Source: Porphyra umbilicalis (taxonomy: Eukaryota; Rhodophyta; Bangiophyceae; Bangiales; Bangiaceae). Taken from it: a DNA stretch of 64,000 nucleotides. Numbering within the stretch: the first letter of the stretch is position 1; each line of letters opens with the position of its first letter. The notes under the pieces are model-generated. The model was not told the origin of the DNA. It worked only from the letters and a program-made list of their open reading frames with translations, and made no database searches. Positions 5,439 through 55,126 of the stretch are shown here, one piece after another. The stretch lies in assembly GCA_002049455.2 (NCBI GenBank), contig KV918909.1, positions 1 through 64,000 of the forward strand. Direction: 5' to 3'. The position numbers were made by a program, and so were the translations under genes.

Positions 5439-6502
5439 TGGCGCTTTACTTTAGAATTCTCAGTTTTTTTGTGCAGTGCCGAACGGAGCTAGTGTCTATT
5501 CTACCGACCGCATCATTTGATGCGATTCGCATCAATTGATGCGGTTTTTCTGTCTTCTGCTAAGAGAGAATGGCTGCTCCGTTGCTCATTCTGACGGCAG
5601 GAACGGGTCCTGCGTAGGCTTTTTATTCTTGGGGTAGAAGGAGGCCGCCCAGAATATATTTCTTCCTTCCCATACAGGCGATGCCGCAGAAGCACCCAGC
5701 AGACCATCCTGCCATGTCCCCCCCGCCCCCCGCCCCATACGAAGCAGAGCTCTTCATGGGTTGTCCGGCTCCAGGAGACTCCACGTACCCTTTCTATGAG
5801 ACATAGAGGTGTCCCTAGGCAGAAACAACATGTTCGGACAGCCTCCGCACGTCGAACAAGACGAGTACGCGGGGCCCCCACAGTGGCTGTTGCAAGTCCA
5901 AATCGACGTATTTGGGGGTTCTGGAGGGGGGGGGGGGGGGAGGGCGATGCTCGGCCCCGCCGGCAGATGCCCTCTGAGTGGGCTTTCATCCTTTTTTTCA
6001 TATGAGGGACATCCTCAACGGGTCTTCTTTATGCTGGGCTGACAAGGCGACCACCCAGCTCCATACTGCCGACGAGAACAGCAACAACGTGGGTTTATAG
6101 GTGCCAACAGGGCCGATTTCCCACTCAGATGCCCCGGAAACCGCGATTCCGACACCGCATCATTTGATGCGCAGCACCGCATCATTTGATGCGATTTTGC
6201 GGTAGAATAGACACTAGAGAGGCATTCAAAGGTCGAGGCGTCCAGGGCCGCTTGGTTCAGAAGTAGCCTACCAATCCATGCGGACTGCTCCTGAGAGAGC
6301 AATTTCGTGCAAGGCTCTCCGTCCTGGTCGAACGTACCTGACATTTGTTCTTGGACAGATACAAGCGCTACGCGACAAGGAGAGAAGCATGAAGATCGCA
6401 GGGAGCACCATCAGAAAGAGCACGTCAAAGAGTTTTAGGTGTTTGTCTCATCTTGCAAACTCGTCAAGCCTCATCAGATGAGAATTCTAAAATAAAGCGC
6501 CA
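5439..6502. mobile_element. 1.06-kb DNA element with nested inverted repeats and palindromic subterminal motifs
   Basis: The ends are inverted copies of TGGCGCTTTAxTTTAGAATT (24 bp, one mismatch; 5439-5462 and 6479-6502). They are flanked by a direct repeat CAAATG (5433-5438 and 6503-6508). Inside is a second perfect 18-bp inverted pair, CTAGTGTCTATTCTACCG (5489-5506 and 6200-6217). It borders four copies of the palindrome GCATCAxTTGATGC (5507-5545 and 6153-6193). There is no transposase frame. The arrangement suggests either a MITE with clustered protein-binding sites or one element nested in another. I cannot assign a superfamily. Confidence 0.6.
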
Positions 6503-6508
6503 CAAATG

Positions 6509-7102
6509 ACGTCCGCATTTCGATTGCGATACCCGGCAAAGGCACCTGCGAATGAAAGAACGGCACCTGCGAACGACGCGAGGGGCATACATACGCACAC
6601 CCTTTCCCCGCCGCCGTGACCCTCGTTCCCTCGGCTTCTATTTGACATGTTTTTCAGCTCTTCCGCGACGTCACAGTGGTGATGGTTCGGTCAAGAACCA
6701 GCAGGCATACCTGCATCCGTAGCCCAAAGCAGAGGACAACCACACCAACACCAAAGGGCATCTATGGGTTCCCTACCGGTTCGTTGGCGCAGAAATCCAT
6801 ATAGAAGCTTCAAAAAGAACTCTTTCGAGACGATGGGCGAGCGCTGTCACTTTGAGGTCGTCCCAACGTGGTGGCACCGCAAAGGTCCGACCACAGGCAA
6901 GTCCGCAGTCCCCACGCACTCTCTCTGGTTTTCCATCGACCACTGCCTGGTGCAGTAACGACATTCGTCTGGTTTGCTTCTCGACTGCAGACGCTCCCCA
7001 GTCGAGCGTTGGAAGGCTCGACGGCGCGCGCTTCAGAGGTCCCGCCGCGCGCGAGGATAGCGACGGCGGCGGCAGCAGCCCGATTCCGTCGGCAACTCCA
7101 CC
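6509..7102. other. Intergenic, no gene seen
   Basis: Composition is lower in GC than the flanks. Short open frames on both strands carry no recognisable motif. Nothing else stands out. Confidence 0.4.
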
Positions 7103-7799
7103 TCACTCCGCTTTGTCGATGAACAACGCACTTCTCCAATAATTTTCGTGAGAAACTAGCTGTACCACCATGTTTGATTGGACAAGCACCCGCAAACCTC
7201 TAGTTTGGCTCCAATGTTTTTCCACAGGCGTGGAAGACCTGCCCGGGCTGCATCCAGCCCCTTGGCGCCGCCCGACGGCGGCGGGGGCGCCGCGGCCGAC
7301 CGCGCGGCCGCCCGGGACGGCCGCGCGGCCGCCCGCGGCCGCCCGCGCCTGCGGCGGCGGCGCCGCGGCGGCCGCGGGCGACCGGGGGTCCCCGCCACAA
7401 AAAACAATCGTGCTTTGGTTGCCCCGCCCCCGCCCCCTCCACGCCCCCGCCCCCGCCACGCCCCCGCCGCGCGGGGCTGCCGATGCAGCGGCAGCGCCGC
7501 GCGCGCGCGTCACGCCTCTTGCCCCCCCTCTATGCCCCCCCCCCTCCCCTGACTCCCCCCCCCCCTGTCCCCCCCAAAAACCACGCCGGCGGACCGCGGC
7601 GCGCCCACCACACCCGCGGCGCGCGTCCCCAACGGCGGGCCGCCGCCGCGACCGACGGGCGGCGCGCGCGGGCGCGGCGCGGCGGCAGCGGCGAGCGTCC
7701 CCCCCCCCCGCGCGACACGGGCGGACCAGACGCCACGGCGACGGCGGCCGCCGCCGCCGCGTCGTCGGCTCGGACCGCGCCGCGGGGGGGGCGCTCACG

Positions 7800-9929: not shown

Positions 9930-9935
9930 GGGGTC
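9930..9935 (+). repeat. Left target-site duplication GGGGTC
   Basis: GGGGTC directly abuts the left inverted repeat and recurs directly after the right one (15070-15075). A perfect 6-bp direct repeat at both outer edges marks the insertion. Confidence 0.8.
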
Positions 9936-9973
9936 ACGCCTAGTTAAGGCCCAGTGTATCCGCTCTTACGGGT
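9936..9973 (+). repeat. Left bipartite terminal repeat, 13-nt spacer
   Basis: The order is ACGCCTAGTTAAGG, then 13 nt (CCCAGTGTATCCG), then CTCTTACGGGT. The same two blocks occur inverted at the other end with only a 3-nt spacer. The blocks are presumably transposase recognition sites. Confidence 0.75.
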
Positions 9974-10387
9974 TTTTGAAGGCTTTGCTGCACATGGTTG
10001 GCTCCTACATCCAAATGCAACTTCTCATTGGGCGACTGCCTTCATGTCAGTTATTTTCTATCGTCTGTTGAAAGGAAGCGTACTTATTTCGCCAGATCGC
10101 GACGTGGCCAATCCCACCAGCGCTCAAGGACCAGCACGGGACGATGGCGAGCGAATCGCTTTCGGTCGTTGCGCGAATCTTGAATAGGTCGCGTTGGAGG
10201 TTGGCACAACGGAATCGAGCTCGCACCAACGAGTGCCTGGCGCTCCGGCGGCAAAAACGGCATAGCTCCGCCCCTACTGGACCATGTGAGCTCCTCTTGA
10301 GCTTCATACGCTGGGCTTCAACTCACGATGCTATGCATGCGCACCACGTCGAAGAACAGTGGCACACAAAAAAGATAGTCGGAGAGC

Positions 10388-11545
10388 CCCTGGCGCCCGT
10401 TTCTCGGGCCATATGGGGTCGGCAAAGAGGGGGAACCTATGGAATACACTTTCTGAGGCCATATTCGTGCTCAGCGCACATGCTTTACCCGGAGTGGCAT
10501 AGGGGGAGGTCCCAAAACACCGACGGTCGGTGATAACGACCCCCCCCCCCCCCCTGGTGCGATTTTGGTAGGCCGCACTGGTGCAAGGCAGGTCATAACT
10601 CCTGCTGTGTTGGTCCGTTGGTGGGTTTCTGTAGCTCGATGCGTGCGTCTCGACGCCTCTATGCTGAGGATATCAGAACCGCCTGTGCATTATGTCGCAC
10701 ACGAAAGGTAGGCATGGTGCCCCGGGCGCCCGTTTATCGGGCCATGTGGGGTCGGCAAAGAGGGGGAACCTATGGAATACACTTTCTGAGGCCATATTCG
10801 TGCTCAGCGCACATGCTTTACCCGGAGTGGCATAGGGGGAGGTCCCAAAACACCGACGGTCGGTGATAACGGCCCCCCCCCCCCCCCCTGGTGCGATTTT
10901 GGTAGGCCGCACTGGTGCAAGGCAGGTCATAACTCCTGCTGTGTTGGTCCGTTGGTGGGTTTCTGTAGCTCGATGCGTGCGTCTCGACGCCTCTATGCTG
11001 AGGATATCAGAACCGCTTGTGCATTATGTCGCACACGAAAGGTAGGCATGGTGCCCCGGGCGCCCGTTTATTGGGCCATATGGGGTCGGCAAAGAGGGGG
11101 AACCTATGGAATACACTTTCTGAGGCCATATTCGTGCTCAGCGCTCATGCTTTACCCGGAGTGGCATAGGGGGAGGTCCCAAAACACCGACGGTCGGTGA
11201 TAACGACCCCCCCCCCCCCCCTGGTGCGATTTTGGTAGGCCGCACTGGTGCAAGGCAGGTCATAACTCCTGCTGTGTTGGTCCGTTGGTGGGTTTCTTTA
11301 GCTCGATGCGTGCGTCTCGACGCCTTTATGCTGAGGATATCAGAACCGCTTGTGCATTATGTCGCACACGAAAGGTAGGCATGGTGCCCCGGGCGCCCGT
11401 TTATCGGGCCATGTGGGGTCGGCAAAGAGGGGGAACCTATGGAATACACTTTCTGAGGCCATATTCGTGCTCAGCGCACATGTTTTACCCGGAGTGGCAT
11501 AGGGGGAGGTCCCAAAACACTGACAGTCGGTGATAGCGACCCCCG
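10388..11545 (+). repeat. 333-334 bp tandem repeat array, about 3.5 copies
   Basis: Corresponding points (GCGCCCGTTT) fall at 10393, 10726, 11060 and 11393, a period of 333-334 bp. Units are nearly identical and include a C14-C18 run of variable length. Each unit can be read as an 82-residue open frame, but the frames probably reflect the repeat rather than a protein. The array lies entirely inside the transposon, between the left end and the 3' end of its gene. It may be regulatory or simply unstable. Confidence 0.9.
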
Positions 11546-11764
11546 CCCCGCTCAGGGCGCGATGTTCGTTGGCCGCACGATCAAACGACGGGCCATGCCT
11601 CACACAGAGTTTGTCCATATGCCCGCTTGAGTAGCTCCTGGCATGGAGCTCCAGGGGCGTCTCGCAGGGTTCATACTGGCCGGCCAGTAGGATGCTGAAC
11701 ACACGTGATCATCGGGGTGCCCCTTTGGTCTCGTTTCTGTTCAGGAAGACGTCTCATCCTTTAA

Positions 11765-14590
11765 TCATACACTCTGCTGACTAACACGCTTGAGATAGGC
11801 TCCTACGGTCTTGGCAGCCTCCTCAGTAATGCCCACCGCCCACTTCAGCCGCTTCTTGGCCGCCTTCGCGCTCTCGGCGGCGCACTCCGGCAACGCCGGC
11901 TTGTTCTCTCGACGCCGTTTGTCGGTTGCCTTCGTGGCTTTGCGGGCCCCAGCCGCGGCCGACCTCCGCGTCGCCACGTAGCGTGCGAGGACATCCGCAC
12001 CCGCCTCGCGCGCCAGAGCCATTGCCCTCATAAATCCTGCTGCCCGCTCCAACTCCGTTGCGCCCGGATACTTGACAGCATTCTGCCCGTACCTACCATG
12101 CCATGCCTCCAGCCCCTGCTCCCCATAAAGACCAATGCTGCCCCACAGCTCCAGAAAGTCTGGAGCGTGGAACATCAAAATGTGGAGCTTTGGGGAAATG
12201 GAAAGCCAGCCAAAGCTCCCCTTCAGCAGGGTGACCATGGCGGACGTATCCGCACGAAAAGCCACGACCTCCTCGGCAGGGATGATGGCGGCGCGGTTCA
12301 GGGTCTTGCGGACCCTGTTCCATAGCGACCAGGCCTTCTCGTAGGCAGCCAGGTGCTCTGGCGAGACCTTGCCCACGAGAGCGGCACACACCAGGGCGCT
12401 GTTGTCGCCGATGGTGTGGCAATCTCGTCCAATAAACAGCCCGCCATGGAAGTCGGTAGGACGGACGCGTACTCTCTCATGAAGCAGCCCAACCAGCTCC
12501 AGCGCGAAGTCGGTGCCCGCTTGCCGTCCGGCGGCAGCGCCGTCAGTCGCGCTCCGGTACACCATCACCGTCTCCACAGCAAGTCGAAGGAATCGGTGGT
12601 TAATTCCTTGCGTTGTGTGCAGAGGAATTGGCACAATTTGGCGGGGGTCAATCCCAAGCAGGGGACTCCGCGCCACCGAGCAATGATGATCCGGCGTGCC
12701 AGGCATGGCAATAGTCCGCGTCGCGTTGTCCATCACCATGCGGTCCGCAAAGTGCGCGCCCTCTCGCAGGTTCCCGCTCCCACTTACATCTTGAAGCGTC
12801 CCGTGTGTGGCGTCCAGCAGCGCCTGCTTGACACTCGGCGACCGGGTGCGCTTACACATCAGACAGGGTTGCGTGGCGGTCGCACCCTTGTGGCCAAGGA
12901 AACAGCACTGCGCGTCGTAGTCGCACCCGAACATCAGCCGCACCGGACGTCGCGCACCATGCACCATGACGCCGTCACGCAGGAGGGCGTCAATTTGCGG
13001 CAGGTGCGTCTCCATCATGGCGGCCAGGGCTTCGTACTTGTCGTTGTCACACGGGCAAACTCCGACCAGGATGGTGTTCGAGGGGCTATTCGGGTGCGCC
13101 TGGTTAATAATTGAAGCCACAATTTTCACCGTCCCAGGATCTCCGCCCTTGTCCAGACCGACAACGATCTGCACGTCCGGTCCCGACGTGGCGGGCGAGC
13201 CAGGAAAGGCGACCGCTGCTGCGGCAACACCGGGTGCGGCGGTCGCCGCGTCGTTGAGCGCCGCCAAGGCATTGGTCGGCCTCTCCACGAACAGTCCGCC
13301 GTCGCACAGGGCCGACACGCGCTCCTGAATGGCCGCGGTAAGTGAGACAAGATGAGCCCCCGAGCCTGTCACGGCCACCTTCTTGCCAGGCAGCGCGGAC
13401 AGCTCGCGCCGCTTAGCACGCAGTATAGGCAGGCTGCAGAGGCCGCTGGCGGCCCCTCCGAGTGCCAATCTCCAGCGGTTGAACCCAACGTTGCTCATGG
13501 ACAGAGCCGCCACAAGGCCCACCTGCTCGGTGACAGAGAGTTGGACGGCACCGCGCGAGGGCCGCGTCCTGCAGCGCTTGGTCTTCGCCACCCCAACCTG
13601 CGCCCCCCCCCCTTGCAGCCGACGCGCCGCCTCGCGGCGCTTGTTTGTCTGGCTCGTTTTGACCTGGGCCTTCCTCCTCGACAGCTGTCGTAGGTAGACG
13701 CGCACGCTTCCATTCTTGTGTCGGAGGCGGATCTCGGGGCGGTCACCACGCCACAGAATTGCACTTGCAATGTCCTCAAGTGTCGACTTGTCCTGCTCCC
13801 GGTCGTAATTCCCGGCCCTGAGACCATCAAGGAATTCCCGACAACTGGGAAGTGCCGGCAGCTTGGTCGCCGACGACGGTGGTGGTTGGGTGGGCTCACT
13901 ACTGGGCTCGCCACCAGAGGCAAACAACAGCCGTCGACGCGCGTCGACTGGGAGCTCCTGCGGCTGTGCACCTTCCCCCACGTGTGTGGGGGAGACCGCG
14001 CGGCGGCGCTGCCCCAGCGACTCCGCTCTTGCGGCTGCCTGCCGCTCCCCGCCCAAGCGGTCGACCGTCCCCGAGGAGGCGCCGTCTGGAAAGCCCGTCG
14101 AAACGCCCATGCTAGCCGACTGGGTGCCGACCGACAGTGCAGAGCCGAGCCAGCCGTCCTGAGGCATACAGGGGGAGGGGGGAGCTGGTGCTTGCCCGAG
14201 GTGGGGCAGCAGGCGCGGGGCGAGCGGAACGCCAGGGGTGGGTACGCCCGCGGTAGGGGAGCGGGGGGGCAGGGTAGTGGCCGACAGAGAGGGAGCCAGA
14301 TCGCGACGTGCCGCCCTCTTGCGCCGAGCGCAGCACCTGTCGCAAAGACCGAGGGGGGTCCCTGTGCTGTGCAAACCCAATGCCGCCGCCCCACGCTTGC
14401 ACGCGACGACTGGAAGGCGCGCAACGAGGTCTGGAGAGGAGCCACTAGGGCAGGTCTTGGCCCAGTCGCGCCAATCAGCCATTCCTGATGTAGGTTTCAG
14501 GAGAAGGCGCGCGCAGTCGACGCAAAGGTACGCCCATATCGTGCCTCCAAAGGACTGCACGACGTCTACTGTGGTTGCCCTGTTTCCCAT
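11765..14590 (-). CDS. RAG1/Transib-like transposase, 941 residues
   Basis: This is a predicted DDE-type recombinase of the element at 9936-15069. The N-terminal part has two Cys pairs (CVDC at 23-26 and CDRCC at 83-87) that could bind zinc. Residues 100-240 are a Pro/Ser/Ala-rich linker. The catalytic region begins about residue 350. Candidate catalytic acids are D480 (GLDKGGD), D557 (GCDYD) and E828 (YGEQGLEAW). Candidate zinc ligands are C576/C579 and H803/H808. The spacings D557 to C576 (19), C576 to C579 (3), H803 to H808 (5) and H808 to E828 (20) equal those of mouse RAG1 D708, C727, C730, H937, H942 and E962. GSIG before the Glu is shared too. The first spacing (D480 to D557, 77) is shorter than in RAG1 (108). 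The start at 14590 is the first ATG of an intact single-exon frame. A Lys/Arg-rich tail follows residue 880. Family assignment is inference from motif spacing. Confidence 0.75.
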   Translation of the reverse strand: MGNRATTVDVVQSFGGTIWAYLCVDCARLLLKPTSGMADWRDWAKTCPSGSSPDLVARLPVVACKRGAAALGLHSTGTPLGLCDRCCARRKRAARRDLAPSLSATTLPPRSPTAGVPTPGVPLAPRLLPHLGQAPAPPSPCMPQDGWLGSALSVGTQSASMGVSTGFPDGASSGTVDRLGGERQAAARAESLGQRRRAVSPTHVGEGAQPQELPVDARRRLLFASGGEPSSEPTQPPPSSATKLPALPSCREFLDGLRAGNYDREQDKSTLEDIASAILWRGDRPEIRLRHKNGSVRVYLRQLSRRKAQVKTSQTNKRREAARRLQGGGAQVGVAKTKRCRTRPSRGAVQLSVTEQVGLVAALSMSNVGFNRWRLALGGAASGLCSLPILRAKRRELSALPGKKVAVTGSGAHLVSLTAAIQERVSALCDGGLFVERPTNALAALNDAATAAPGVAAAAVAFPGSPATSGPDVQIVVGLDKGGDPGTVKIVASIINQAHPNSPSNTILVGVCPCDNDKYEALAAMMETHLPQIDALLRDGVMVHGARRPVRLMFGCDYDAQCCFLGHKGATATQPCLMCKRTRSPSVKQALLDATHGTLQDVSGSGNLREGAHFADRMVMDNATRTIAMPGTPDHHCSVARSPLLGIDPRQIVPIPLHTTQGINHRFLRLAVETVMVYRSATDGAAAGRQAGTDFALELVGLLHERVRVRPTDFHGGLFIGRDCHTIGDNSALVCAALVGKVSPEHLAAYEKAWSLWNRVRKTLNRAAIIPAEEVVAFRADTSAMVTLLKGSFGWLSISPKLHILMFHAPDFLELWGSIGLYGEQGLEAWHGRYGQNAVKYPGATELERAAGFMRAMALAREAGADVLARYVATRRSAAAGARKATKATDKRRRENKPALPECAAESAKAAKKRLKWAVGITEEAAKTVGAYLKRVSQQSV

Positions 14591-15041
14591 TCACAATAAC
14601 CAGAAAAAAGGGGGGGGGGGTACGTAGATAGTACGCGGAAAATGTGAGTGTCTCTGTTGCAGTCTGCAGGACCCAGCCGCTCCCCCCCCCTCCCCCCGCT
14701 CCGCTGCGGGCTGCTCCTCACAAAACGGTCGCACTTACATCCGGTCTCCATCGTCGTCCGCCATATTGCACCCCTCCACAGCAGGAAGACAACCAGTCGG
14801 CGATCGTATGGGCTCGGGGGCCTCTGGAACGCCTGCAGGCGACCGGCGTGGAAACGAGCGGGCAAAAAAACGCGGGCAACACGTGATCCGGCGGATCACG
14901 GCTCAATCCATTGCTCATCCTCTCCGGTCAGCCACCCCTCTCACAGGGGCATTGAAGGCCTATAAAATTGGGACGCGTCCCAAATCGCCCTCGACCAGTG
15001 GTATTTTAGCACGTTGCAGCTCTGTCGTGTGTAATGCTCAG

Positions 15042-15069
15042 ACCCGTAAGAGTCACCTTAACTAGGCGT
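15042..15069 (-). repeat. Right bipartite terminal repeat, 3-nt spacer
   Basis: On the minus strand this reads ACGCCTAGTTAAGG, TGA, CTCTTACGGGT. Compared with the left end, both blocks are perfect and only the spacer differs (3 against 13 nt). Confidence 0.75.
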
Positions 15070-15075
15070 GGGGTC
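15070..15075 (+). repeat. Right target-site duplication GGGGTC
   Basis: This is a perfect copy of 9930-9935, immediately outside the right inverted repeat. Confidence 0.8.
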
Positions 15076-25485: not shown

Positions 25486-26598
25486 CGCGCAGTCCCACCC
25501 ATCCCCTCAGGTGCTGGCCGTCAACGACACACCCCCAACAAGACTGTCCGCAGCGGCGAGCGCCCTCAGAGGAGCCAGTGGCGTACCCGCCCAGCGTGGG
25601 TGTACCACAAACGCGACCCCGCGCACATACAGCGGAGCAGCCGCCCCCTCCGTCCTCCTGGGCAGAGCCGCCCACGTGCCACCACCAGCCAGCGCCCGTG
25701 CGCCACGCCCGCCCCTCCACCGCCCATCCCCGCCGCGGTCGGCGGCGGCGGCGGAATGGCGTCGTCGGCGGCGGCGGCGGCAATGGCGGCGGCGGGGGCG
25801 GCGGAAAGAGCGACAGCGGCGGCTGCGCGCAGCCGCGAGGGGTACCCCTCACCCCGCGACCGCCGTGCGCGCGTCTGCCCGCCGCCACCGCCGCCGCCAC
25901 CGTCGCCGCCGTCGGCCGACCGGCGCCGCGGGCGCGGGGGGTTGGACGCGCCGCCGCACCGTGGCGCCGACGCGCCGGCGCGAGGCCGCCGCGGCGCCCG
26001 GCGCGCATCGCGGCTGCCGCCGTCGGCGTGCCGCCGGGGCTCGCCGTGGCCCCCGCACCCGCGGCGGGCAGGCGGCCGCGGTCCGCCGGCCGCCGCCGCG
26101 TCCGCCGCCGCCGCCGTTGCTGCCGCCGTCGCCGCCATGGCCGACCGCATGGGGCCGCCCGCGTCGGCGCTGGGCGACACGGCGACGGTGGGGTCGGCGG
26201 TGCCCCGGCGGTAGCGTTGGCGTCGTCCTCCCCTGCAACCTCTCGAGGGGAACCTCCGTGGGCGACCACGGCGGACGCACGGCCGCGCTGGAACCCCTGC
26301 CGGTCCCGCCCGCCCCGGTTGGTGTATCGGTGCCTCCTCCGCTCTCTGTCCGGTGAGATCGGCCGCCCACGCCCTCAACCGTGCGCGCCGTCGTGTTGGC
26401 CATGGCTCACGCCACCGTGACGAGCACCCGATCCAACGCGTGTCCCGCTGCCATTCCGCTGTCGGCGCATAGCACGGGAGAGCACGAAAAAAACACCGAC
26501 CACTGGATTGCGTTTACGCGCACCGCCGCCCTCGTGGAGATGCGTCCCCACCCCCCGCCCACCCCCCCCCTCTGTCACCGGCGCCGCCCCCCCCCCCC
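25486..26598. other. GC-rich stretch, coding status unclear
   Basis: Ala/Arg/Pro-rich frames run on both strands (for example an Ala-rich minus-strand frame around 26110-26160). They overlap and shadow each other, and no start or domain stands out. The 3' end of the ABHD17-like gene lies at the right edge. Confidence 0.3.
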
Positions 26599-28653
26599 TC
26601 ACACCGGCTCGCCGACGCGGCGCTGCCGCCGAAACATGCCGCCCGACGTGCACTCTGCATCGGGCGCCCGCGGTGCCGCACCGCCCGCGGCCGCAAAGGC
26701 GCCGCCGACCCCCCCCGCCGTCGTTGCCGGCCGCCGGCCGCGGAGGCGCGACAGCAGGCCGCCGCGCCCGCCGCCGCCGGGCGGGCCCGCCGCCAGCGGC
26801 ACCCCCGCCCCGAGGCGGTGCGTGCGGCCGGCGTCGTCGCCCGCGCCCGCGGCAGACGGACCGGCGGCGGGGCCGTCGGCCGACCACGCGCGCGTCGCTT
26901 CGGTGCTGCGCCGCCGCGCATTGCCGTCGGCGGCGGCGGCGGCCGCCGCCGCCGCGGCTGCCGCCGCAAAACCCCCCGGCGCCCCCCCCCCCCGCCGCCC
27001 GTGGTCGACGCTCGCGCGCACCGACGCGGGCGCGTCGGCGGCGGCGCTGCCGGCGGGCGCCGGCGCCGGCGCGGGCGCCTCCCCCGCCGCCGCCGCCGCG
27101 AGGCGTTTGCCAATCGCGGCGGCGAGGCGGCGGTGCGGCCGCCGCGACGCGGCGGCGGCGGCGGTGGCAGTGTCCGCCGCCGGCAGCGGCGCCCCGTCGG
27201 CCAACGTCCCCGACTCGGCGAGGGACACGGGGGTAAAGCTGCCGGCCGACGCGCGCACGCGCGCGGCGGTGGCAATGGCCGCGGGCGTGGCCGCCGCCGC
27301 GGCGGCGGCGACCATCGCGTGCGCCGCCGAGTGGGGGGCCATGGGCAGCAGATCGTCGTCTGCGGTGGGGGGGGAGGTGGCCGCCGCGGCGGAGCCCGCT
27401 GCTGGTGGCGGCGGCGGTGACGCCGCGGCCGCCCCCGAGCGCGCATCGCCGCTGCGGCGGAAGCGCAGGCCCCGCCGCCAAGAGACGGGGCCGTCGGCAG
27501 CCGACGACGACGGCCGGCCGGCGCGGGTGGCGGCGGCGGCGGCCTCCACCCCCCCGAGCGGCGCCGCCCCTCCCGCGGCCTTGGCCCTGCCGCCGCCGCC
27601 GCCGCTGCCGCGGGCGTTGCCCGGCCCCTGGTAGCCCGGCTCCTCTGCCGACAGCACCGCAAATGAGGAGAGGCTGCGGACCATAGGCGGGCGCTCGGCC
27701 GCGTCGCCGCCGCCGCCCGCCGGCACTGCCGGCCCGCCGCGCACGCCCGAGGCCGGCGCGATCGTCGCCGACGCGACGCACCCCCCCCCGCTGTCGGCGC
27801 GGTACAGGCCGTTGCCGCGGGTGACGGGCGGGGGCGCGTCGTCCTCCTCCCCTGGTGGCGGCGGCGGCGGGGAGGCGGTGAAGGACGGGAGCGCCGACAG
27901 CGCGCGCTGGATGCGCCCGCTGCCGACCGTGCCGAGGCCGCGGTCCTCCTGCTGCCACAAGGTGTGGATGTCCTCGGCGGGCGGCGGGGAGGCCGTCGAC
28001 GATGGGGGCGGCGGCGGCGGGGGCGGCGGCAGCCCCTCCCCCGCCACCACCGTCGTGGCGGCCATGGCGCGGGGCACGCCCGCGTCGGGCGCCGCCTTGG
28101 CCGCCGCCCCCGACGCGTCGGCCGCCTTCCACTTTGTCGCCGCCTTTCCGTCGGCGACTGGGGGCGTGTCGAGGCCCTCGGCCGACGACACGTCAATGTG
28201 GTCGGGGGAGAAAAAGTCATCGCGGGCGGCGAGCGCCAAGCGGAGGCTGTCTTGCACCGCCTCAACCGCCTCGGTCGTGAGCGGCTCGGTGCCGTCGGCG
28301 GGGGCCACGGGGGCGGCTGCCTTGCGCGGCGGGGACCGCCGCGTGGCCGCGAGCGGCGTGGTCGCACGGTCGGCCGCCGCCGCGGCGGGCGCCGCCCGCG
28401 ACGCGGTCGCGACCGACCGTGCGGGCGGCGCGCGCCCGCTGCCGCCGCCGTCGCCCCCATCGCCCGCCGCCGCCGCCGCCGTCGCCGCCGCCGGCGCCAG
28501 AGGGGAGTCCAAATCCGTATCGGCAATGACCACCACCGGGCGGATCGGCCGCGGCTCGCAGCCGTCGCCGCCGGTCGGCTCCCCAAACGCGGTCGCGAAA
28601 AAATCGGGCGGCGGCGTGTCGCCCGCCGCGAGTGGCGGCAGGGGCAACCGCGG

Positions 28654-28700
<47 letters not shown>

Positions 28701-31700
28701 GGGCGCAAATCCCCCCGCTGTAGGTTGCGGCCGGGGACCCCCCCGCGGCGGAGGAGCCCGCCTCCTCCGTCATCGTCGCGTTGGTGCTGATGGACAGCGA
28801 CGGGGAGGTGGGGGTGGCGCGGCGGCGGCGGCGGCGGCGGCGGCGCCCTGGCCGGCCGTCGGCCGCCGCGGCTTTGCCGGCCGGCCAGCACCCCTCGTCG
28901 AGGAGCATAAAGTCGTACACTTTGCCGCCCGAGAGGCAGTTTTCCGCGCCGCCCGACGAGCCCGCCGCTTCCAACAGCGCCGCCGTGGGCGGCAGCGGCG
29001 TCGCCGGCACGACCGTCCGCGGGGCGGGGGGGGCCGGCGGCGGCCGGTACCCGCCGGGGGGGATGGTCGACGAGACGGCAACGACGACGGCGCCCGTCAC
29101 CCGGTCGCCCGTCACGGGGTTGACGTGCGCGGGCGTGACGCCCGGCGGGATGGCAATCGTAATAAACGGCGTGGCCGCATAGGCGGCGGTGTACGGAGCA
29201 CCCGCCACCGGGGCGGCGGCGGGGGCAGGCGGCGGCGCTGGCCGCGGTGGTGGGGGGAGGTGCGCCTGCGGCGGCGCCGGCCGCTCCTCGTACACGGTCG
29301 GCATGGACGCCACCGCCGTCGCGCCGATATCATTAAAGCTGTCCATCGGCCCGAGCGCCGCTGCGGCGGCGGCAGCGGCGGCGGCGGCAGCAGCGGCCGC
29401 CGTCGCCGCCGCGGCGGCGCGGTTTGCCACCGCGTCTGCCGGGGGGGGCGGCGCCGGCTGTGGCACGTGCACCGGTTCGGGCCACGGGGGGGGCGACGCC
29501 GGCTGCGGCACGTGCACCGGTTCGGGCCACGGGGGGGGCGACGCCGGCGCCCGCGCCATGGCCGCCGCCGACGACGGGGGCGGCGGCTCGGCGCGCCCGT
29601 CGGCCGGCTCGGACCACAAGGGCGGCGGCGCGGCGACGGACCCCCGCACCTCCACGACCGGCCGCGGCGACGCGCGCTCGGGCGGCGCCACCACCGGTGG
29701 GGGCTTGGCCGTCGGCGGTGGCTTGGCGGCCGGCAGCAGCTTGGCGGCAGGCGGCGGCTTGGTGGCAGGCGGCGGCTTGGTGGCAGGCGGCAGCTTGGCG
29801 GCCGGCAGCGGCTTGGCGGCCGGCAGCGGCTTGGCGGCCGGCGGTGGCTTGGCGGCCAGCGGCGGCTTGGGGGCCACACCCACCCCACGCACCACCTGCC
29901 CATAGTGTGCGGCCGCGTCGGCAATCGTCCCAAACACGAGGGCGACGATGCCGTCGCCGTCCCCCCCCCCCACCCGTCCAGCGGCCCCGAGCTGCCCCGC
30001 AGCTCGCCCCCCGGCCCGAGACTCGTGCTCATCAGCGGCGGCTGCCGGCGCGCGCGCGGCAGGCGGGGCAGGTTTGGGGTGCTCCCCAACGGCGCGTCCG
30101 ACTGCCGCTGCTCCCGCTCGTCCATCCCATCGTCGACAAACCCCCCGTCGGAGCTGCCGCTGCTCGACGAGGAGACGGACAGGTCGTCGCCACCCTCCTC
30201 CCCGTCGCCCCACCCGCCCTCCCCATCCCACTCCTCCGTGCCATCGTCGGCCCAGACGCTGCCGCCGCCGACGCCGCCGCCGAGGCCGTCGCCGCCCCGC
30301 GCGGCCGCCGCGTGCCACGCCTCGGTCGACGCGGCGGAAAAGATGGTGCCGGAGCGGGGCTCCGCGCCCCACGTGGACGACGAGCGGCGGCCGGCGCCCC
30401 ACACCGACGGCTCCCCGCCGGGCCCATCCGCGTCTGTCACGGGGGACACGCTGTGGGGCGTCGGGGGCACGGTCACGGCGGCGGCGGCAGAGATCATGGA
30501 CGGGACCGACACGACCGTGCGGTTGGGCGCGCCGCCCGAGCCGCCCGCCACCGCCGTGGACGTGCAAAAGGAGGTGCCGGGCTCGGCCGACGGGCGGCGG
30601 TAGCGGAGGGAGCGGAGGAAGCGGCGGAGGTGGGCGACGACGGGGGGGGCCGCCAGGCCGGCCGCGCCCGCGTTGGCCGCCGCCGCCGACGCGGCGGTGG
30701 CGGCCGCCGCCGCCGCCGCCGCCGTGGCTGCCGCCGCCGCAGCCACGACCGCCGCCGCAGCGGTGCCGCCGAGGTGGCCCTGCCGCCGCACCCCGGAGGC
30801 GAGGCTCAGGCTCGGCACGTCGAGCGGCACGGCGTCGTCCTCCCCCTCGTGCGCGACGAGTACCGGACACACGGGCAGCGCGGGCGGCGCCGACACCCGC
30901 CGCCCCGCGGGCGTGTGGTACACCTGCGGCGCCGTCACGGCGGCGACGCAGCCGGGGGGGGGCGCCGCCAGCACCAGCCCCGCCAGCCGCACGCCGGGCG
31001 TGGCCGCCAAGCCCGCCGACGCGAGCGCGCCGACGCCACGGCCGACGGCCACGACGCGCCGCACGGGCGAGCCGTCGCCCCCGAGGCGGGTCGTTGCATA
31101 GGCAAACGCCGCCCGCGCGTCGGCGGCGAGCGTCTCGGCGGTCGGCGGGCGCGTGGATGGTGTTGACACCAGCGGCGTCTCGTCGTCGGCGTCCACCTCG
31201 TCATCGACGCCGTCGGGCGCGTCGCGCTGCGCCGCGCCCCCGCCGCCGCTGCGGGCCGTGCCGCGGCCGGTCGTCAGGCCGACGACCGGCGCCGCCCCCC
31301 AGCCGCTGAACTCATAGGCGAGCACGTCGACGCGGAGGGCGGTGGCGAGGCGGGCGGCCTGACCGGCCGCGTCGCCGAGGTCCTCCCCTTCCCCATGCGC
31401 GAGCAGCAGCACGATGCCACCGCGGCGACGGCCGCCACCCCGAATCAGGACAGCGGGCAAGCCGTCAACGGCCGGGTCCGCCGCCTCCTCCGACCCATCC
31501 CTGACCGTCTCGACGGGCGTCGACGCCACTTCGTGGCGCCGGAGCACTGGAAGGTCGCGCCGCGGAATCCACACCACGTCGTACGCAGGGGCAGCCGCTG
31601 GATCCCCCACCGCACCACGCCGGTGCAGCCGCAGCACGTTACTGTCGATGGTGTAGGTCGGCTCCGCTGCCGGGCCCACCGGCTGCACCGGCACGGACAC

Positions 31701-31712
31701 GGCGGCGCCCAT
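26599..31712 (-). CDS. ABHD17-like alpha/beta-hydrolase-domain protein lacking the nucleophile, with a giant low-complexity tail
   Basis: The ATG at 31712 (GCGCC ATG GGC) gives MGAAVS, a possible N-myristoylation start. Residues ~45-300 follow the ABHD17/FAM108 serine-hydrolase pattern. IVLLLAHGEGEDLG (100-113) matches the oxyanion-hole strand, LRVDVLAYEFSGWG (126-139) the next strand, and CPVLVAHEGEDDAV (282-295) the catalytic-acid loop. The nucleophile elbow reads G224-R-G-V-G228, so the expected Ser is Gly. An Ala tract separates this from VVAHLRRFLRSLRYRR. ABHD17 enzymes remove palmitate from membrane proteins; this one is probably inactive. A tail of over 1200 Pro/Ala/Gly-rich residues follows, including about eleven KPxPAA-type repeats (29700-29870). 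The frame changes at a C11 run (29961-29971). One extra base gives exactly 1705 codons. The tail could instead belong to a separate gene. Confidence 0.55.
29700..29870 (-). repeat. 18-bp coding minisatellite (KPPPAA-type)
   Basis: About eleven 18-bp units encode the hexapeptide K-P-x-P-A-A/T in the tail of the ABHD17-like protein. Two 48-bp repeats encoding SPPPWPEPVHVPQPA lie nearby (29453-29552). They are probably disordered spacers. Confidence 0.7.
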
Positions 31713-33338
31713 GGCGCTGCGCCTCGGGTGATGCCCACGGCGTGGTGACGACGGCGGTCGGGACAGTGGCGCCGGGGCCGCCCAGACCGGGTGCGCTCGT
31801 CGGCGCCACGGGCGCGCTACCAAGAACCCTCGTGGTGCGACTCGTCACCGTCCTCGCCGGCAACCAAATCGGTACGAGACGATGCCGCACCAAAAGACGC
31901 CGGGCACAGCCGCTGTAGTAAAGGTCGGTTGCGTGTGCCCCGTGCCAACACACACCCACCACCACCCGCGGCGGCGGCGCCGCACACGCACGACGCGCGG
32001 CGCGCGCCACTGGCAGCCCGCGCGAATAAAAAGGGGGCGTCGCCAATCGCCCAAGCCGCACAGCCCGGCCCGGTCGAACACACGCCCCGCACCGCGCGGG
32101 GAGACGGCAAGTGCCGGGAGGACGACGGCGAACGCGGCTGCGCGGCCCCCTCCCCCACCGCACCAGGCGGGGCGGAGCTCGTCACGCGACGGCGCCAAAA
32201 CGCGCCGAACGCGACCACGCCCTCGCGGCTGCAGATGCGGTGCGGGTCGACCGCGGCGGCATTCGCCGCCCGCTGCCGCCGACGGGATTTCAACTGTCAC
32301 ACACCACCTTGATGCCAGCCGGTGGCCACGGATTGGCAGAGAGGGCGGTGGGGCGGAGAAACCCTGACGGGTGGCCCACGTGTGGGCGGCGCGTCGAGCG
32401 GGGCGGCACCCACCGTCCAGATACGTCGGCCGGTGGGCGCCGGCGAAATCGGATACCGCCGACAGGGCCTTGTGGCCAAGTGTCAGCGTGAGCGCCAACT
32501 GTCAAGGGCGCTAACGCAGACCGCGCTGTCTACGTTCACCGCGTTAGCGCGTCTGCTGATCACGCGGCAGAGCCGGTGGGGCCCCAGAGGTGGGCGTGCA
32601 AGCCGGGGAGGACGGGAACACCCTCTGGCCCCGCCCGGCGGTGCGGCCGACTCGAAAACCCCATGGATGGCCCAGTGTTGCGCCATTTGAGTCGCTGCCA
32701 GTCACTTGTCAGCGGGGTCAACCGCGACCGTGCCGCACGCCCGCCTGGCGGGGCCCGCCCGCCGGCGGTGCCCCACCCACCGCCTGCGTCACACCAGGAC
32801 ACCCGCCAGGCCGACGACTGGGCCGCGGCGCTCGACGCCGCCGCAATGGTGTCAACGTCCTCGCACCCAGAGGCCTCATCAACGAGGGAGATGCCGCCGT
32901 CGTCCACGTTGCAACCGCCGCCGTGCGGCAAGCACCGAGCAGTGCGCAGTGCCGCACGGCGGCGGTCCGCGGACACGGTGGCCCACCGGCACGGTGGTGG
33001 CCCTTGAGGCGCCGTCTTGGTAGAACGACCTCTCCAAAGCGGTGGAAGTTGGGTCGTATCTCGGAGCGCGGCGCACAAAGCCCGTGGGCAGAGCCCACTG
33101 GGCACTGTTCGGCGGTCCAAGACAAACGTAGGGTCGTCTGCGGCCACAATCCACCACCGTCGATACCGTTGCACGCGTGCCTCTCCTCTTCTCGCGTGCC
33201 GTGGTGACAGACGCGCTTGTGATGCAAAGTACCCACGCATATCCGCGAGTGGCCCTCAGCCAACCTGCTGGCTCTCCAGACATCCGTCAGTGCGCGGACG
33301 CTCCAGCGTATGTATGGTAGGGCCTCTATAGCGTCACG
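31713..33338. other. Intergenic between RABGGTB and the ABHD17-like gene
   Basis: Both neighbours read leftward, so this stretch should hold the 3' flank of RABGGTB and the promoter of the ABHD17-like gene. A minus-strand frame near 32800-33000 includes GGGCNVDDGGISLVDEASGC, but nothing around it supports a gene. No repeat was seen. Confidence 0.35.
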
Positions 33339-48735: not shown

Positions 48736-50369
48736 ATGCTGTCGGCCGGAAAACGGCGGCGAAAGCCGCGCCAAGAGATTTCGTTCGGTGTCAAAAAGCA
48801 GATCATTCGTCTCCGCGACGCTAAGGTTCCGTGGGCGGTGGTTTTGCGGCAGCTGCCTGTTCCTGTGAACAAGCGCAATGCCAAAAAGATTATGGCGGAG
48901 GCGGCTGTCTACCGGACCATGCCTGATGATGCGCGCACATTGTACCGCAACAAGCATCGGGAGGGCAAGTGGCCAGAACTCAACGCACTAGTGTGCAAGT
49001 GGTATTTAGCGTTTTATGCACTCGGTCATCGCCGAAAACCGATCACCACCGCGCTGCTCCAAGAGGCTGCGACGATGACCGCTGGTCGGCTCGACACTAC
49101 CGGGGTTTCGGCGATCCATGGCTGGATACGGGGCTTCCTCAAGCGTTTTGACATCTGCAATGTGGCCATGCACGGCCAGGCGGGAGCCGTCAACTTGGTG
49201 GCGGCCGCTGCAACTTATGTGCCCCGGAAGGACCGCAGACGCGCGCGCGGCACGAAGGCCATGTGGCATATGGACCGCGTCACCCTTGTCCTCTGCACTA
49301 ACGCGACTGGCACCCACAAGGTCCCCGTGGCCATGATTGGCGAGGCCGCCAAGCCGCTATGCTTCCGCGGAGACGAAAACTCGTGCCCGCTCCCCTACGT
49401 CGACCAAAGGAGGGCGTGGATCGACAAACTCGTCTACGCCCGGTGGCGGAATACTGTATTCCTGCCGGCGGTGCGGGAGCGGCACCGGGGTGCGAAATGC
49501 GGTCTGATTATGAAAAACTCTTCAACGCATGACGTTGAACTTATGGCGTACGACGTCGATACATTTTATCTTCCCCCTAACACCACGGCCGTCTACCAGC
49601 CGATGGACGCTGGCATGATTGCGGCGCTCGAGCGCCGCTACAAACGACGCCTATTGGCTATCCTGGTGCAGCGATTTCCTGTGCCATTGGCTCCGCCTCC
49701 ACCCCCCGACCCGACCAACTGCCTCGACCTCCCCCCACTCCCCTCAGCCCCCACCCGTCAACCCCACTAGTTGCCCCGGCGCGCACTCCCCCACCGCCAC
49801 CGTTTGGCTTCCGCGTCGAGAATGCGGCGCTGTGGGTCAACCCGACAACACAAGTTTTGCAGGAGTACGGCGCGCCGCGGTTGGCTGGGCTTGAGGTCAT
49901 GGACGAGGACGCCGACGCCCAGGCACATGCGAGCCTTTTGGCCGCCGTCCTCCGCCCGCCGGACCAGGAGCCGCGACCGGCCCGGAATTGCGGACTGGCT
50001 GGGGGCGGCCAGGCCCACCTCCTGGATGCCGCAACATTTATTTCCGAGGAGTAGGACAGGGTAACGAGCGAGTCCAGTGTGCACTGTTGGGTGAAGTCAA
50101 CTATTTTGCCTGTTTATATGAATGCATCTGTGGTGGCGTTGCACGCCGAGTACCGGCAAGGGTTTTCTAGTGTGGAAGATGATGTGAATGCGATGCTTTC
50201 CATTATGCGGGGGACTTCTCTTGGACAGGACGTGGTGGGGGGGGAGACAGAGGATGACGCGCGGGAGGGCATGCGTGCTTGGTTTGCGGCTGAGGACGAG
50301 GAGGACGGCATCGTAGATGCAGCTGATTTGATTGTATTCCAACCAGGGGGATGGGTCGTCTGGGGATGA
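48736..50369 (+). pseudogene. Decayed CENP-B/pogo/Tigger-type transposase
   Basis: The N-terminal basic helix-turn-helix (KRRRKPRQEISFGVKKQIIR) and a central CENP-B-type HTH (GVSAIHGWIRGFLKRFDICN) precede a DDE_1 domain (TLVLCTNATGTHKVPVAMIG, KPLCFRG, RRAWIDKLVYARW). The first catalytic Asp (normally in a MDET-like motif just before this) is missing, apparently deleted. The second, normally in LxxDN, is Lys in LIMKNSSTHD. The third survives in LPPNTTAVYQPMDAGMI. The 344-residue frame ends at 49770 in a C-rich stretch. The C-terminal part continues in another phase from about 49857 (LLDAATFISEE, stop at 50052-50054, then HCWVKSTILPVYMNASVVAL). A frameshift, a stop and two lost acids make it a transposition-dead remnant. 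Domestication of the N-terminal part cannot be excluded. Confidence 0.8.
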
Positions 50370-53479: not shown

Positions 53480-55126
53480 ATGCGTCCCAAGGGGGCGCCA
53501 CACACCGCTCCCCCTAGGAGGCGTTACGTGTGTGATCGCGGCCCCTCCCCCGGCCCATACCGAGGGGGATCGCGTCATCAGGGGACAGGGGGTCTCCCCC
53601 ACAGCGCCTATCTGGCGCACCGCTCGCGGGCAGTGGAAGGGCGGCTCGCCGACCTGTGGTCTGCGGGGCTCTTCATTGAATGCCTCGCATATGACTCGCA
53701 GGGCGTGGCCATCCCTGAGACTCGTGATTATGAGATTCCCAGCTATGGGAGATCCTCTTAACGCGATTTTTTCCCTCCAGCAGACATGCGAGATATTCTT
53801 GTCTACACTGGCTTGGACAGGGGAGGTAACCCATCTTCTGTAAATGCTGTGATGGGGTTTCTAAAACAAGAACACCAGAACAGACTTAGAAATATCCTCC
53901 TCGTGGCAGTTTGCCCAGAGTCCAAAGACAAGTACCCTGAGAAGGCTGCCATACTGGATCCACATGTGGCGCAGATACTACGACTGAGATACACTGGGGT
54001 AGTGATGGGTGGCCATCGGCGGGCGGTACGCGTGTTTGTCACCAGCGACTTACCGGCTATAACCAACACGGTTGGCCGTAAGGGGCACAACGCGTCCATG
54101 CCTTGTCCCTGCTGCCTTGGCATGAAATGCCCCTCAGAGGCCCACTCTCTGCTGGATTGGGCATTTGGGACCCTGCGGGACTTGGACTACACTCATCCCC
54201 CCCGGACGGCGGCGCACTTGCGGGAAAAGCAAGAGGCATATGGGGGCTTGGGACGGACCCCGGCCCAACTTGGGTTGGCTACACACATGTCGGTGGAGCG
54301 GTCACCGGTCATTGTTGTGCCACCGTCCCAAATCGTGCCCCTCCCACTTCATTTCACGATTGGCATCACAGCTCGGCTCCTGCGGTTGGCAATTGAAGCT
54401 GTAACCCAAGAGCGCGGGTCCGTGGACGGTCGGCAGTTGGCGCACCGACTGACGGCTACATTAAGCGTCAACATTGGCGTCGAGCCTGTGCCCTACCACG
54501 GGGGAAACTTCATCGGTCTGCACTGCCACACAATCGCTTCGCGGTGCGTTGAGATTGTGGACGCGCTGCGTCCTCTCGTGTCTGCTCCCCGGCTCACCGC
54601 CTATGAGCGCGCGTGGGAGCTTTGGCGAGGGGTACAGTCAACCCTCACCCGAGCGGCGCTTATCCCCCCCGCCGAGCAGGCGCGGTTTAAGGCTGATGCA
54701 CGGGCGTTCGTCAGACTTCTCCAGGGATCATTCCCTTGTCAGAGCATTTCATTCAAGCTCCATATGCTGTTCGCCCACTCTTGGGAAATCATGGGGCTGT
54801 GAGGCAGCACAGGGCTGCACGGGGAGCAAGCCATAGAACCATGGCATGGTTTCTATAACGAAGGCGCTCCCCGGTTTACCGCTGAAACGGCTCAGCTGTC
54901 CTGCCGAAAGCTGGTGCAGAGGATGGCCCTGAGCGGCGTGGCGTCCGAGGCCCTGCGGCGGGCGAGGGCCCCAATTTGCAACCGTAAGGCGGCGCCCCGC
55001 AGCGCGCTGCGGCCTGGGGACCGACGATTGCGGCAGAACAAGACATGGCGGCGCGAGTGCCTCGCGACGCTGCAACAGAGGATATATGACAGAACGACGC
55101 GGCCACTTCGCCAAAGACCAGTTTGA
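53480..55126 (+). pseudogene. Broken relative of the RAG1/Transib-like transposase
   Basis: A single reading phase runs across this region with in-frame stops at 53759-53761 and 54800-54802. It aligns collinearly with the 941-residue transposase: RLADLWSAGLFIE, then TGLDRGG (first acid), TSDL (second acid), CPCC at +19 and +22, HYTIGIT-like and NFIGLHCHT segments, HMLFAH (H-x4-H) and GEQAIEPWHGFYN (Glu at +20). All candidate catalytic and zinc positions survive. The second stop replaces the Trp seen in the intact copy. Identity is moderate, so this is a different lineage rather than a recent copy. The N-terminal third is missing or unrecognisable, and no matching terminal repeats were found. 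It is probably inactive unless the stops are sequencing errors. Confidence 0.75.

Follow-up and report, generated by a model that had tools for sequence, protein, structure and literature searches.

Chapaev transposons are probably the closest described relatives of the mobile element reported here, which lies in the first 64,000 nucleotides of contig KV918909.1 of the red alga Porphyra umbilicalis (hereafter the window) and encodes a 941-residue transposase. The family DUF1280 was assigned to Chapaev transposases in Majorek 2014 (PMC3985635), which puts them in one clade with RAG1, and for Kapitonov and Koonin 2015 (PMC4411706) Chapaev is one of the clades that make up the Transib superfamily; here and below, papers are cited for those of their passages that concern these elements. 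A fungal transposon paper of 2025 (PMC12730594) names the wider group CACTA-Mirage-Chapaev-Transib/RAG1 (CMCT), whose members have C(2)C and H(3-4)H motifs in common and make target duplications of 2-5 bp. In this line, the hallmarks listed for Chapaev (PMC4079192) include C(2)C, LH and H(4)H motifs, CAC...GTG ends and a 3-4 bp target duplication. The ends of most Transibs are given as symmetric (PMC8289069), and asymmetric ends are known for RAG1-like (RAGL) transposons, ProtoRAG and some Transibs. Each end of AanRAGL, an active RAGL transposon of the alga Aureococcus, carries a 13-bp element, a spacer of 4 or 13 bp and a 10-bp element, and RAGL duplications are of 5 bp (Tao 2022, PMC9435367); in ProtoRAG the end spacers are 27 and 31 bp.

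From its sequence, the window element is probably an autonomous DNA transposon of the cut-and-paste kind, recently active and belonging to the CMCT clade, nearest to Chapaev, which would work through the mechanism proposed below. It spans 5,136 bp (9935-15070), has CAC...GTG termini with a 4-bp target duplication, GGGT, and is bounded by a perfect 15-bp inverted repeat, CACGCCTAGTTAAGG, at 9935-9949 and 15056-15070. The surprise is in its ends, whose unequal spacers differ by about one helical turn and thus appear to parallel the 12/23 recombination signal sequences (RSSs) of V(D)J recombination and the 4/13 spacers of AanRAGL. The element is made up as follows:

9931..9934, no strand: left target-site duplication GGGT, repeated at 15071-15074
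9935..9973, plus strand: long end, with block 1 CACGCCTAGTTAAGG (9935-9949), a 13-bp spacer (9950-9962) and block 2 CTCTTACGGGT (9963-9973)
10360..11659, no strand: four tandem copies of a repeat of about 333 bp, downstream of the transposase gene
11765..14590, minus strand: 941-residue DUF1280/Chapaev-like putative DDE transposase (open frame with ATG start, Pfam, hhalign and eight-row family alignment)
15042..15070, minus strand: short end, upstream of the transposase gene, with block 1 CACGCCTAGTTAAGG (15070-15056), a 3-bp spacer (15055-15053) and block 2 CTCTTACGGGT (15052-15042)
15071..15074, no strand: right target-site duplication GGGT

The same design recurs in the genome (83.8 Mb in 665 contigs), for which all copy counts are lower bounds. 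Block 1 occurs 128 times (65+63), against a single match for the reversed pattern. Every end consists of block 1 (15 bp), a spacer and block 2, which reads CTCTT... in most families and begins at nucleotide 19 or 29 from the element end; the end that lies upstream of the gene has a spacer of 3 bp, the opposite end one of 13 bp. Exact matches to block 1 followed within 0 to 30 bp by CTCTT number 110 (58+52), with a spacer of 3 bp in 72 of them, 13 bp in 38 and no other length in any. When one mismatch was allowed, 158 short and 124 long ends were obtained (282), and among the 200 of them listed (100 of each kind) all the inward neighbours within 12 kb (57/57) join one short to one long end, 45 of these 57 pairs spanning 0.8-1.8 kb.

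A closer comparison was possible with 28 elements read base by base, which fall into 13 groups. Across 12 representatives (from 12 of the 13 groups), block 2 agrees at 93% between the two ends of an element and at 73% between elements, and none of 10,000 re-pairings was as good; when the long spacer was read at every length from 8 to 18, only 13 gave this within-element agreement. In the same representatives, mean identity is 53% for the long spacers, with a minimum of 15%, 38-45% for the 40 bp that follow and 90-92% for block 1. Spacer length is therefore conserved more than spacer sequence. Moreover, two diverged families have an altered block 2 (CCGATCTGG in L068 and CGCATA in L069) and keep the 10-bp difference; such a change in step at both ends is as expected of a putative transposase binding site.

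The target-site duplication was followed in 33 elements for which two ends were found, 27 of which show 4 bp together with CAC/GTG termini. These comprise 16 of 20 short elements, scored by script, and, read by eye, all five diverged families (L065, L068, L069, L070 and L071), four of the five full-length copies with both ends found (C149, C106, C115 and C291) and both L079 and L080; three of the 27 (L048, L058 and C115) are weak, lying within C or G runs. The count omits L066, L067 and L077, whose second end was unconvincing, and C104 and C2 (L013), each with a single end located. CAC was demanded or selected for in the searches for ends, but AC termini as the alternative do not pass the duplication test. 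By eye, the duplication had first been read as the 6-bp GGGGTC next to AC termini; this was rejected, as with AC termini a common length finds support in none of the 20 short elements, whereas CAC with 4 bp fits 16 of them.

Recent activity is suggested by at least six copies with complete 941-residue frames, which differ at only 4-11 of 2,823 nucleotides (0.1-0.4%) and have different flanks. Older families are also present, the most distant at 41% identity across the greater part of the protein. The short element L045 consists of two segments of the window element, 99.6-100% identical to it, and is thus a deletion derivative in which both ends are retained. In the core (residues 370-880), the ratio of non-synonymous to synonymous substitution rates (dN/dS) is 0.11-0.17 in five of six between-family pairs (window against L077, L078 and L070; L065-L070; L066-L067), values that are rough because dS is high (1.2-2.5); in the sixth, L068-L069, synonymous sites are saturated. 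Among near-identical copies, the window gene gives 0.14 and 0.21 against L008 and L011 (seven and eight changes), and the L077-L078 pair 0.70 (nine changes). One full-length copy (C106) is longer by 333 bp, 5,469 against 5,136. A motif also recurs every 334 bp at about 4200-5550 of L077, after the transposase frame of a 65%-identical family, so the satellite-like array beside the long end may be of long standing. The window itself also holds a decayed relative of the transposase:

53786..55123, plus strand: decayed transposase relative, its frame broken by a stop ending at 54802, with a motif match at 54812

The motif has two mismatches, with 0.02 chance matches expected, and Pfam gave no match to this relative at E <= 0.01. 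Near the L070 element, a second open reading frame (ORF) of 472 residues (6384-7799, minus strand) has a sub-threshold DUF1280 score (E 0.0055) and perhaps represents another, more distant family. Relatives outside the host genome were not confirmed in viral contigs, GTDB contigs or phages. Six viral contigs (L001-L006) contain, in mutually similar open stretches of 26-46 residues, a motif like GFYHEQGVES.HTSS that resembles the E824-E828 motif of the transposase; they are possibly decayed relatives, not confirmed as such.

For the transposase, the first-pass annotation had proposed that its active-site geometry is that of RAG1, and the residues concerned are encoded as follows (codons computed from the frame, all on the minus strand):

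13151-13153: D480
12920-12922: D557
12863-12865: C576
12854-12856: C579
12182-12184: H803
12167-12169: H808
12107-12109: E828

The spacings all hold on the translation (D557-C576, 19; C576-C579, 3; H803-H808, 5; H808-E828, 20) and are identical by index to those of the mouse RAG1 core (D708-C727, C727-C730, H937-H942 and H942-E962), for which the sequence used is near-identical to PDB 4wwx (491 bits for its other 214 residues). All seven residues are invariant in an eight-member family alignment, made of the window transposase and seven relatives from its own genome at 42-51% identity, two of them (L068 and L071) partial. The GSIG expected ahead of the glutamate is there (817-820, before E828), as is the YD at the second acid, where Y558-D559 directly follow D557; since D557 is invariant in 8/8 and D559 varies among D, E and A, D557 is the likelier second acid. 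L657-H658 occurs as LH in five of the eight members, as VH in two and as LQ in one.

Beyond the spacings, an hhalign comparison of the eight-row alignment with mouse RAG1, the only RAG1 sequence on that side, extends over 283 columns with a score of 48.6 (P 2.6e-5, probability 75%), against 31.5 for the best of 199 shuffled RAG1 sequences, 16.4 for reversed RAG1 and 18.1 for a pogo-like DDE protein from the window. It pairs C576 with C727, C579 with C730, H803 with H937, H808 with H942 and E828 with E962. A Fisher test on RAG1 identity at the invariant columns (22/82 versus 32/201, p 0.045) is weak and we do not rely on it. The hhalign comparison supports the view that the protein is a DDE-type enzyme and a remote homologue of the RAG1 core.

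Profile searches indicate where in the clade it belongs. The only significant Pfam match of the window transposase is DUF1280 (PF06918; E 1.6e-8, 34.9 bits against a cut-off of 25) at residues 469-536, a segment that surrounds the putative first catalytic aspartate. DUF1280 is matched by five of the eight family members at E <= 0.001, where it is the sole Pfam family, and by seven at E <= 10; an NCBIfam search with the transposase returned no family. The element is thus Chapaev-like, within the clade that includes RAG1, and probably not RAG1/Transib proper, because its duplication is not of 5 bp, Pfam gave no RAG1 match and no second gene was seen among ORFs of at least 150 residues. Of the RAG1/Transib-type transposase originally proposed for this locus, the remote homology to the RAG1 core has therefore found support, and the placement has not, given DUF1280, the 4-bp duplication and the lack of a RAG1 match.

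Several observations weigh against these conclusions and have to be set beside them. The hhalign stretch starts at residue 516, leaving D480 uncovered, and its gapped path matches D559, not D557, to D708. In a HMMER search of the PDB, the family profile reached neither a RAG1 nor a Transib chain at E values up to 10. At the ends, 18 of the 128 exact block 1 copies are not followed by an exact CTCTT at a distance of up to 30 bp, and six of the 33 elements lack a 4-bp duplication (the short elements L050, L055, L056 and L063 and, by eye, the full-length copy C284 and L078). All 28 elements read base by base fit the 3/13 spacing, 20 of them preselected by 3 and 13 patterns that had found both ends; the other eight are the window element, the five diverged families, L079 and L080, the last two also pattern-found. 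For L068 and L069, block 2 was made to start where an alignment of the two ends placed it, which leaves the 10-bp difference as the one firm result, and the long end of L069 has a rival candidate 40 bp away, the other having been chosen because it fits both the spacer and a 4-bp duplication, TGCG. Finally, the 57 mixed pairs alone are no proof of obligate mixed pairing, because the asymmetry may descend from one ancestor.

The last point leads to the alternative that survives best, in which the 3/13 spacing is ancestry alone, inherited from a single unequal-ended ancestor with no pairing rule. Many of the pairs do derive from few families, as the 13 groups among 28 elements indicate, and the high identity of block 1 among representatives is what this explanation would lead one to expect. 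It has to account, however, for a 10-bp difference kept at 41-51% protein identity in the face of long spacers and adjoining 40 bp that have diverged much further than block 1, for the lack of any third spacer length among the 110 exact ends and for a block 2 whose changes at one end are matched at the other; we hold it to be unlikely.

A genuine Transib/RAG1-like transposon with a drifted sequence, the reading proposed in the first-pass annotation, shares the RAG1 spacings and the remote homology seen by hhalign, and its case is helped by ends that closely resemble those of AanRAGL. As Chapaev is counted within the Transib superfamily by Kapitonov and Koonin (PMC4411706), the gap between the two placements is partly one of rank. 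The duplications, however, are of 4 bp, not 5 bp, and the RAG1 family of Pfam, in contrast with DUF1280, is matched by none of the eight members at E <= 10. No second gene (RAG2L) was seen among ORFs of at least 150 residues between the ends, where the transposase and three overlapping frames are the only ones, shorter or split genes and the RAG2L domain lying outside that search. Moreover, the family profile that met no RAG1 or Transib chain contrasts with the C-terminal part of RAG1 itself, which finds HzTransib by HMMER at E 0.005; a search of the host genome with the RAG1 Pfam profile was also without a match, and shows little, as its controls were equally silent. Taken together, a drifted RAGL transposon seems to us quite improbable. 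Transib elements duplicate 5 bp, hAT elements 8 bp, and Kolobok targets TTAA. Another zinc-motif DDE superfamily (CACTA/EnSpm, KDZ, hAT or Kolobok) is very improbable, since its supports, CAC termini that also occur in CACTA and C(2)C/H(3-4)H motifs common to the CMCT group (motifs that for the same reason do not single out RAG1), meet DUF1280 as the sole significant Pfam family and a 4-bp duplication, compared with the 2 or 3 bp of CACTA/EnSpm and 8 bp of Zisupton in the literature passages cited.

For the Chapaev-like cut-and-paste transposon that we favour, a mechanism can be proposed by analogy with RAG. The transposase would fold like the RAG1 core, with D480, D557 and E828 binding two metals and C576, C579, H803 and H808 a zinc ion, and a separate DNA-binding region might recognise block 2. 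Cleavage would take place next to CAC, in a synapsis joining one short-spacer and one long-spacer end, where the 10-bp offset would move block 2 inward by one turn of the helix, an arrangement like that of 12/23 synapsis. Insertion would then follow with a 4-bp stagger.

The host had been taken for a non-animal eukaryote, and its genes bear this out. Nine contigs hold ten matches to chlorophyll-binding antenna proteins, and transposase copies lie on three of these contigs as well (C291, C333 and C397), so the host is photosynthetic, hence non-animal. For the two antenna proteins compared, the nearest PDB chains are of red-lineage type, 9vfj (long LHCI) and then 7y5e in one case and 7y5e first in the other, and ACP/CAC-type chains, among others, rank next for both; we take 7y5e to be from the red alga Porphyridium and the ACP/CAC chains to be from cryptophytes. 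A partial host 18S is an exact match to a non-chlorophyte group probe, and the other group probes did not single out a group. The host 18S (L081 about 560-1200, contig C62) shows an apparent insert of about 600 bp bounded by the inverted repeat GGTGCGTGTCCCAAAAATGAGACAT / ATGTCTCATTTTTGGGACACGCACC, for which an expansion-segment stem, an intron or an inserted element are candidates. Within the window, a separate mobile element encodes a 344-residue pogo/Tigger-like transposase (48736-49770, plus strand; DDE_1 E 1.8e-22 and a Tc5-type helix-turn-helix), and the region 26000-32000, with a G+C content of 78-81%, has overlapping frames of up to 1,423 residues on both strands, which are probably a composition effect and not genes.

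An algal copy had been expected to widen the origin story of V(D)J recombination, a claim that is pre-empted because an algal RAGL transposon has already been described, together with Transib homologues in bacteria, fungi and plants (Tao 2022, PMC9435367). What goes beyond the first-pass annotation is the ends, the target duplication and the copies of the element. Among the papers listed in full-text literature searches, with subscription papers and Repbase Reports outside their scope, none that names Chapaev reports asymmetric ends for it, and for algae or protists a single review (PMC5745447) uses the word Chapaev. The origin of the 12/23 rule is an open question in that of V(D)J recombination, and the presence of this end design in a non-animal, Chapaev-like family suggests either that the asymmetry is ancestral to the wider clade or that it is a repeated solution for one productive synapse per element. 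We tentatively put forward, as a possibility short of probable, that the one-helical-turn asymmetry behind the 12/23 rule predates RAG1 and Transib, was present in the common ancestor of Chapaev and RAG1/Transib and is still used by the algal family. The near-identical intact copies and natural short derivatives make a pairing rule directly testable in a cell assay.

Compared with known systems, the algal element shares with Chapaev the DUF1280 segment, the C(2)C, H(4)H and LH motifs, the CAC...GTG ends and the 4-bp duplication (PMC4079192), and differs in its asymmetric two-block ends with 3/13-bp spacers, unreported for Chapaev among the papers listed, and in its photosynthetic host, whereas Majorek 2014 (PMC3985635) speaks, in the passages cited, of animals; the DUF1280 match spans 68 residues only, so no branch within Chapaev is assigned. 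With AanRAGL, from a pelagophyte, and ProtoRAG it has in common a RAG1-core-like transposase and two conserved blocks with unequal spacers, the second block of AanRAGL lying at nucleotide 18 or 27 as computed from its published ends; the 4-bp instead of 5-bp duplication, the missing RAG1 Pfam match and the absence of a visible second gene set it apart. Asymmetric two-block terminal inverted repeats, here with 3/13 spacers, are likewise shared with Transib subgroup I and RAGL. HzTransib (PDB 6pqn) also has H-x4-H followed by IGxxxExxxE, but its aligned glutamate lies 22 residues after the second histidine, compared with 20 in the algal family and in RAG1. Unequal spacing of binding sites is known as well for the P element. 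With regard to vertebrate RAG1 and its 12/23 RSSs, ours is a transposon and not a domesticated recombinase, its offset is 10 bp instead of 11, and its blocks are unlike heptamer and nonamer beyond CAC; the two systems nevertheless share the active-site spacings, the CAC end and a second block at two distances, the RSS nonamer starting at nucleotide 20 or 31 (computed from the heptamer and the 12/23 spacers) and the algal block 2 at 19 or 29.

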